DNA from: a virus
DNA length: 44,297 nucleotides
Virus record (IMG/VR): IMGVR_UViG_3300028840_000517
Span: 1-44,297 of that record
Direction: 5' to 3' (one strand)
This document shows, piece after piece, positions 1,447-3,513 of the stretch (the first letter of the stretch is position 1; each line of letters opens with the position of its first letter). Both the position numbers and the translations under genes were made by a program. Under the pieces are notes generated by a model. That model had not been told where the DNA came from. It saw only the letters and a program-made list of their open reading frames with translations, and made no database searches.

Positions 1447-3513
1447 ATGAACACCGTAACCAATACCGCCGCCGCCGCCACGAACGACGCATTGCGCAAT
1501 GTGACGCTGGGCAACATGACCTATGCGGAATATTGCCGCGCCGCCCGCCGCGCGTTCGTCGCCTTGTGCGACGAGGTCGCCCCCGGTCGCGTTGACGCGG
1601 TTCGCCTCAACTTGCAAGGCGATACGGCGGCAATCGCCCCGTCGTCGTGGTCGCCGACTGTCTGGACCTTGACCTTGCCCGCGATCCGCGCCGACAAGGT
1701 GATCACGCGCGCCGACGCCGACCGCTTGACCGGGTTCTGGCTGCACGAGGCGTTGCATGTTCTCTATACCGACTTTGACGCATGGCGCGTCGCTGTCGGC
1801 GAGGGCTTGGCGGGCGTGGTCAACGCCTTGGAAGACTGTCGCATTGAGGCCAAGGGCGCGGCGACCGGCCACGCCGCCAACATCGCCCGCACTGTCGGCT
1901 TGATCTTGGCAACATGGCTGCATCGCGCCGCCGTCAAGGGCCACGCGTTCGCCCCCGGCAAAGGCGGCAACTTTGTTTTCACCCTCGCCCTGTATGGCCG
2001 CGTCGAGCATCTGGGCTATGCAATCCATAACGCCCCCGCCCTCGACGACGCGGGCGACGACGTCGCCGCCCTTGTGCGCAAGGCGACCGCCGACGCAATC
2101 GCCGCGACCGACACATGGGGCGTTGTGCAAATCGCCCGCGATTTGCGCGCCGCTTTGAAGGGCGACGACGAGGCCCCGGCGACCGACGCCGACGACGAGG
2201 GCAACGCCGACGAGGGCGACGCCGCCGACAAGGGCGACGAGGGCGACGCCAGCGACGACGCCAGCGACGAGGGCGAGGGCAACGCCAGCGACGACGCCAG
2301 CGACGACGCCAGCGACGACGCCAGCGACGACGCCAGCGACGACGCCAGCGACGAGGGCGAGGGCGAGGGCGAGGGCGAGGGCGAGGGCGAGGGCGACGAC
2401 GCCGACGCCGACGCCGACGCCGACGCGACCGACGCAAGCCGGGGCGAGGGCGAGGGCGACATTGACGCCGACGCCGACGCCGACAAGGGCGACGCGGGCG
2501 ACGCCGACAAGGGCGACGAGGGCGAGGCCGACGACGACGCCGACAAGGGCGCGGGCCGCGCCGGTTCAAACATGCCGCGCCGCCATGACGTCGGCGACGA
2601 CTGGGCCGACGAGGCGCTGAACGCGTTCGGCGACGAGGCGGCAAGCAAGGCCGACGCGGGCGACATTGCGGGCGACGACCGGCTTGACGACCGCACCGAC
2701 AATCGCGCCCATGAGCAAGTCGCCGCTTATGAGGGCTACACCATGACGCCGATTTACATGGTATCGCCCCGCCTCGCCGACGACGTACGGCGCGCCGTCA
2801 AGGCCCCCGGCGTTTGCGAGATGCACCGCCGCCGCCTCAATGGTCGCCTCGACACCCGCGCGCTGTCGCGCGGTTACATGGGGGCGGGCGACGTATTCGC
2901 CCGCCGCGCAATCAGCGACGACGACGTTGCCGCCGTCGCAATCATGGTGGATGTGTCAATCAGCATGCGCGACTATGTGAACGGCTACACTCGCAAGGCC
3001 GACATTGCGGGGCCAATGGTTCAAGCACTGGGCGACGCCCTCGACGCGGCGGGCGCGCCGTTCGAGGTGCTGGGCTATGGCGATCCGCTGGGCGGCGAGT
3101 GTGGCCCCGCCTGTTCATTGCTGGCATTCAAGACAATGGGCCAAACATGGGCGGCGCGCCGTTCCAAGTTGAACCGACTGGGCCGCTACTGCGAGCATTC
3201 AACCTATATCATGCCCGCGATCTTTGCCGGGGCCGACCGCCTCGCCCGCATGGCCCCCGCGTCCGGTCGCAAAATCGTCATGGTGATCACCGATGGCGAC
3301 GACGGGTTCCACCATGACGCCGCCCGCATGGCAAGCGACGAGGTCGCGCGCCGGGGCGTCACGGTTTGCGCGCTGGGCGTGGCGCAAGACGTCGCGCACA
3401 TTGTGAGCGATCCGCGCCTCGCCGTTAACGTCCGCGACATGCAGCACTTGGCCGACGGCGCGCTGGGCGTCATGGCCGAAACCTTGAAAGCGGGGCGCGC
3501 CGGTCGCCCTTGA
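1447..3513 (+). CDS. CobT-like protein: zincin-type HExxH domain, acidic repeat linker, C-terminal VWA
   Basis: Start chosen at the ATG six bases after AAGGAAGCT, giving 688 residues. Three parts are visible. (1) The N-terminal region carries HEALH at 100-104 and, downstream, NALEDCRIE (126-134), the arrangement of CobT and VWA-associated metallopeptidase-like proteins in which the later Glu can complete a zinc site. (2) Residues about 239-375 form a low-complexity acidic tract of DDAS, EG and DA repeats. (3) The C-terminal VWA domain has the MIDAS motif D502-x-S504-x-S506 and a TDGDD loop near 615-619. MoxR ATPases act with such VWA partners, and this gene follows its ATPase by 31 bases. An intrinsic terminator follows, so the pair is probably its own operon. 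Whether the zincin site is catalytic and what it acts on are unknown. It is not evidence for cobalamin synthesis. Confidence 0.85.
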   Translation: MNTVTNTAAAATNDALRNVTLGNMTYAEYCRAARRAFVALCDEVAPGRVDAVRLNLQGDTAAIAPSSWSPTVWTLTLPAIRADKVITRADADRLTGFWLHEALHVLYTDFDAWRVAVGEGLAGVVNALEDCRIEAKGAATGHAANIARTVGLILATWLHRAAVKGHAFAPGKGGNFVFTLALYGRVEHLGYAIHNAPALDDAGDDVAALVRKATADAIAATDTWGVVQIARDLRAALKGDDEAPATDADDEGNADEGDAADKGDEGDASDDASDEGEGNASDDASDDASDDASDDASDDASDEGEGEGEGEGEGEGDDADADADADATDASRGEGEGDIDADADADKGDAGDADKGDEGEADDDADKGAGRAGSNMPRRHDVGDDWADEALNAFGDEAASKADAGDIAGDDRLDDRTDNRAHEQVAAYEGYTMTPIYMVSPRLADDVRRAVKAPGVCEMHRRRLNGRLDTRALSRGYMGAGDVFARRAISDDDVAAVAIMVDVSISMRDYVNGYTRKADIAGPMVQALGDALDAAGAPFEVLGYGDPLGGECGPACSLLAFKTMGQTWAARRSKLNRLGRYCEHSTYIMPAIFAGADRLARMAPASGRKIVMVITDGDDGFHHDAARMASDEVARRGVTVCALGVAQDVAHIVSDPRLAVNVRDMQHLADGALGVMAETLKAGRAGRP
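2284..2426 (+). repeat. In-frame tandem repeats coding for the acidic tract
   Basis: Five exact copies and one near-exact copy of the 12-mer GCCAGCGACGAC (2284-2355) are followed by seven copies of GAGGGC (2353-2394) and then GACGCC repeats. All stay in the CobT-like frame and encode Asp/Ser/Ala and Glu/Gly repeats. Copy number probably varies by slippage. The unit has no spacers, so this is not a CRISPR array. Confidence 0.9.

Follow-up and report, generated by a model that had tools for sequence, protein, structure and literature searches.

Introduction

Earlier work describes cobST in tailed viruses of bacteria and archaea as a cluster of two genes, and calls the peptidase label of its cobT a mistake (PMC8651126; repeated in PMC9503304). 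In the published view, the viral cluster boosts cobalamin production (PMC8651126 and followers). Surveys count phage cobS and cobT as vitamin B12 auxiliary metabolic genes. A second described system is NorQD, which inserts iron into cNOR. The model given for it has the AAA+ ring rotate a VWA 'finger', stretching the linker, and metal insertion is proposed to be driven through twisting of that linker.

Here we analyze a gene pair in a 44,297-nucleotide viral contig (IMG/VR record IMGVR_UViG_3300028840_000517; 'the window' below means this whole stretch). The pair is kin to CobST, NorQD and Midasin. It corresponds to the cobST cluster already described in viruses, and its kind (MoxR/VWA) is known as well. 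The literature assigns this cluster to the cobaltochelatases and regards its peptidase label as wrong, whereas nearly all mobile-element members carry a strict HExxH plus D130. We read the pair as a remodelling machine of the MoxR AAA+/VWA type, carried by mobile elements, with its own, probably hydrolytic, metal site; it would act in the DNA metabolism of the element and not be a cobaltochelatase (probability about 0.5 for this reading as a whole). Neither the conserved metal site nor a case against the B12 label appeared in a partial search of the literature.

The gene pair

The original prediction placed an AAA+/VWA pair at 1447-3513. That interval does hold the VWA protein, and the position and residue numbers given for it (H100, E101, H104, E129 and E134) agree with the ORF translation, as does the full MIDAS, but the ATPase precedes the interval, at 9-1415. 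Its ORF is cut at the contig junction, and joining the ends puts the start at 44033, giving 511 aa. The contig carries an exact 144-bp direct terminal repeat (window 1-144 = 44154-44297), so it is probably a complete phage genome. Features are listed in Table 1.

The ATPase matches phrog_249 ('porphyrin biosynthesis', CobS family; E 1.3e-46) and AAA_5 (E 4.5e-16), and its PDB matches include CobS, NorQ and Midasin. The predicted Walker A, Walker B and Arg-finger candidates are present in this upstream ORF. The CobT-like protein consists, in order, of a zincin-like N-domain, an acidic linker and a VWA domain; it matches phrog_1576, a family of no assigned function, and has a weak match to phrog_5298, a cobalamin family. 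Its MIDAS is formed by D502-x-S504-x-S506 and D616, all four at least 90% conserved in alignment A4, and the best Foldseek match of the VWA part is the NorD VWA in the NorQD complex (E 2.3e-11). The locus has the makeup of a MoxR AAA+/VWA pair: a MoxR-type AAA+ protein with Walker A, Walker B and Arg finger, linked to a VWA protein with a complete MIDAS.

The pair had also been credited with its own promoter and terminator. The terminator is a good one, but a separate promoter is not supported: sigma-70-like promoter sites number 0 versus 1.1 expected in 1-7600, and none lies 5' of the joined-end ATPase start. The element AAGGAAGCTA precedes both the joined-end ATPase start and the VWA gene, and copies stand close 5' of several genes (window 1432, 4190, 5904, 11595, 14139 and 44018). 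It is longer than a plain Shine-Dalgarno sequence and is perhaps a shared translation signal.

Table 1. Positions of features in the window and, in the last row, of DUF3150 genes in other records
Feature	Positions	Strand	Basis or remarks
CobS-like MoxR-family AAA+ ATPase gene, C-terminal 468 of 511 aa	9..1415	+	phrog_249, AAA_5, PDB matches
Walker A GPRATGKT	606..629	+	Gly and Lys invariant in alignment A2
Walker B region (C)LILVDEP	793..816	+	Glu invariant in alignment A2
Candidate Arg finger (FLSRF)	1008..1010	+	Arg invariant
CobT-like VWA protein gene	1447..3513	+	ATG at 1447, stop 3511-3513, 688 aa ORF
Zincin-like N-domain, modelled over residues 24-238	1516..2160	+	AlphaFold2 pLDDT 93.7, pTM 0.89; hhalign to canonical CobT N-domain
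HEALH, H100-E101-x-x-H104	1744..1758	+	full HExxH in 89 of 91 representatives
NALEDCRIE, N126...E129 D130...E134	1822..1848	+	on helix 122-140
Acidic low-complexity linker, about residues 240-440	2164..2766	+	mostly disordered by prediction: pLDDT <50 nearly throughout 240-439
VWA domain with MIDAS (DVSIS 2950-2964; TDGD 3289-3300)	2935..3510	+	Foldseek, conservation
Intrinsic terminator downstream of the CobS-like/CobT-like pair	3544..3568	+	11 G-C pairs and T-run
CobS-like gene 5' end, right contig end	44033..44297	+	ends joined; RBS-like AAGGAAGCTA at 44018
DUF3150 (PF11348) with AAA+/HExxH-VWA genes, in IncC-type and other plasmids	L020 13713-14990; L025 6966-8321; L024 11144-12409; L023 4699-5766

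The only annotated phage match of the VWA protein is in Microcystis phage Mae-Yong1326-1, where the pair is labelled CobS/CobT. There it stands at the left end of the genome, and the module downstream of it (RuvC, SNF2 helicase, exonuclease, SSB and DNA polymerase) resembles that of the window. This phage and the T4-like cyanophages with cobS and a 'peptidase' belong to the viral cobST cluster, which has the same adjacent pair and the same domain order as the window.

Conservation of the probable metal site

CobT-like proteins were collected from annotated phages and plasmids reached through CobS and from IMG/VR scans, and were reduced, with 70% identity as the ceiling, to 91 non-redundant mobile-element representatives. 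All 91 have E101; H100 and N126 are present in 90, H104 and D130 in 89, E129 in 87 and E134 in 86. The full HExxH is present in 89/91. The prediction of a MoxR AAA+ ATPase paired with a VWA protein that has a zincin-like metal site, here seen to be conserved, is supported. Scans A7 and A8 were seeded with sequence touching the HE motif; among representatives from sets without such a seed (via CobS, the A3 scan and the window), 40 of 42 have HExxH. Conservation at this level is far beyond chance. Across an alignment of 28 N-domains, no column is invariant other than H100, E101, H104, N126 and D130.

H104 is missing from two representatives, Pseudomonas phage nickie and locus L039, and D130 is missing from the same two and no others (joint absence has a chance of 1 in 4,095 when phylogeny is ignored). 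The histidines and D130 thus behave as a unit, and D130 is the likely third ligand. Of the metal-site residues originally proposed, H100, E101 and H104 remain candidates; E129/E134 do not, and as a ligand pair they are rejected because canonical CobT retains both without the histidines. Specifically, three canonical CobTs (cellular, from annotated cobS-cobT loci) lack H100, H104 and D130 and retain Glu at E129 and E134. We consider it very likely that the N-domain contains a real metal site. The site is not always needed, since nickie, L039 and the loci L132/L133, which within one cluster have H104R with D130 retained, lack the full site yet retain the pair.

The N-domain is homologous to that of canonical CobT (hhalign E 6.1e-7). 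CobNST shares with the viral pair a homologous AAA+ protein and a homologous arrangement of N-domain, acidic linker and VWA; it differs in the three residues above (absent from the three canonical CobTs examined), and no CobN was found with the viral pair. The homology suggests that canonical CobT may carry a metal-enzyme domain that lost its site. Among the mobile-element proteins, an SSU5 member matches the CobT domains PF06213 (E 2.1e-37) and PF11775, and L002 matches PF11775.

AlphaFold2 gives a confident model of the N-domain, which runs from a helix through three strands to the HExxH helix (88-107), followed by a short helix and then the helix with N126-E134 (122-140). This helix/strand order is that of small gluzincins. 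HExxH lies on a helix and is conserved, as expected of zincin metalloenzymes. A Foldseek search of the N-domain against the PDB gave no match with E <0.001, all matches lying above E 1; HExxH enzymes make up at least 14 of the top 50, none significant. This weak list includes YfcM, the HExxH oxygenase ChlB, selecase, M61, M32, leishmanolysin, MATCAP and ERAP1. In L036, L038, L044, L048, L055 and L018 (HHTV-2), the zincin-like and VWA domains are separate adjoining ORFs, which marks them as two separable modules.

Proposed mechanism

By analogy with NorQD and Midasin, the CobS-like ATPase would form a hexamer and grip the VWA protein, ATP use would twist or stretch the acidic linker, and the VWA MIDAS would bind an acidic group on a target. 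In this pair, the linker ties the VWA domain to the zincin-like domain. There H100, H104 and probably D130 would hold one metal, presumably divalent, with E101 acting as general base. A putative target, once forced open, would most likely be cut by the N-domain and less likely metallated or oxidised. The pair would serve the DNA replication or recombination phase of the element. That the N-domain is hydrolytic is a prediction to which we give about even odds; HExxH is also found in non-proteolytic enzymes (YfcM and the HExxH oxygenases), which counts against it.

The same parts could serve a metal-insertion chaperone, in which the HExxH domain would carry a metal and the AAA+/VWA motor would insert it into another enzyme, as NorQD is described to do with iron for cNOR. 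The closest VWA fold is that of NorD, the N-domain/flexible linker/VWA architecture and likely the mechanical principle are shared with NorQD, and a long flexible linker is present here as well. CobST is itself a metal-insertion motor, and by analogy kinship with both systems may be compatible with metal insertion. However, no metalloenzyme is evident as a common neighbor of the pair in phages and plasmids, and the most conserved residue is E101, which in hydrolytic zincins is the general base and not a ligand. Its conservation in 91/91 favours catalysis over carriage, and we regard metal insertion as unlikely. NorQD papers, as far as searched, mention neither HExxH nor a zincin domain.

The other main rival makes the metal site only structural or regulatory and the pair an unfoldase or assembly chaperone that runs on ATP and does no chemistry. 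This would fit nickie-type phages and L039, which are naturally without the site and retain the pair, but the general-base Glu, found in every representative, would be superfluous in a purely structural site. We consider this reading quite unlikely.

The cobalamin question

The published view would have the pair join host CobN and raise cobalamin production for virus replication. Both proteins are homologous in sequence to CobS and CobT, the literature supports this role, and CobN is present in Haloferax and Synechococcus control genomes, kin of some hosts. The original prediction doubted a chelatase, and that doubt stands: the CobS of the window scores 55.9 bits versus a CobS equivalog cut-off of 558.55 (TIGR01650), its VWA protein matches neither PF06213 nor PF11775, and CobN was not found in any of 35 viral records (the window and 34 others), though the window's host might supply it. 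Cyrano/SSU5-type relatives occur in 215 of 5,426 E. coli genomes, plasmid-borne every time, and an E. coli control genome gave no CobN match. No B12-dependent RNR family scored over its cut-off in any of 30 records, and neither family matches the window; matches below the cut-off resemble class I RNR, with the exception of one possible class II (G011). The strict metal-site signature, absent from the three canonical CobTs, likewise speaks against this role.

Since the hosts of some members (haloarchaea and cyanobacteria) may have CobN, the published model is weakened rather than excluded everywhere. The pair is likely not a cobaltochelatase, the usual B12-enzyme label is probably wrong, and a viral CobST proper is decidedly doubtful. 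Should the mobile-element family turn out to be a machine that processes proteins in a metal-dependent way, hundreds of genomes (of cyanophages, phage-plasmids and IncC-type plasmids) would lose the B12 reading, and a new function in element replication would be open to testing. A lead from Cobavirus was rejected: the name comes from a B12-dependent RNR, with CobS and CobT unmentioned.

Partner gene and genomic neighborhood

The partner gene is conserved: in 190/215 loci the CobT-like gene has a CobS-like gene no more than 3 kb away, in either order. Most of the remaining 25 loci are contig ends or spaced layouts; the window's CobS was outside the co-occurrence input, and the window is hence counted among the 25. 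IMG/VR searches with the window CobS and with the wide alignment A1 gave no matches, and a scan of genome contigs gave a single weak locus.

Neighboring genes in annotated records are largely those of replication and recombination: DNA polymerase III alpha (DnaE) in SSU5 types, a Rhizobium phage and nickie; gp46/47 and clamp genes in cyanophages; primase, helicase and polymerase in ICP2; UvsX and primase/helicase in DLP6; and ssb-bet/RecT-exo with DUF3150 in IncC-type plasmids. RuvC also occurs. By raw count, the commonest PHROGs in 94 neighbor proteins are primase/helicase, DnaB, primase and integrase. These neighbors locate the pair in early DNA-metabolism regions and may reflect only that location rather than a functional link. 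For the host-defense or virion targets suggested originally there is no evidence, the neighbors pointing to DNA replication and recombination. PADLOC returned no family for the VWA protein and only weak AAA+ matches for the ATPase, and the defense-system reading was therefore dropped; a weak match to AcrIIA26 was set aside. Highly improbable is a reading in which phages and conjugative plasmids use the pair as a protease machine coupled to replication. Like the eukaryotic metalloproteases SPRTN/Wss1 with the AAA+ motor p97, it would strip or cut proteins that adhere to the element's incoming or replicating DNA or are linked to it covalently.

IncC-type and other plasmids carry an AAA+ - DUF3150 - VWA cassette beside ssb-bet/RecT-exo, with a CobS-like gene and a VWA partner bearing HEAAH/NVLEDCRIE. 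The cassette differs from the window in having DUF3150 in addition. DUF3150 gave no match in the window or in 26 other viral records; it is a plasmid-specific third component.

In Listeria phage P70 (L011 5758-7710), a DUF7192 protein without HExxH replaces the CobT-like gene after the CobS-like gene, and is possibly an alternative CobS-like partner. In L002 (5874-7533), the CobS-like gene is two ORFs split by a stop, either a real break or an assembly error. In Synechococcus phage ACG-2014f (L008 2630-3352), a 2OG-Fe(II) oxygenase gene lies directly 5' of the 'peptidase'-CobS pair.
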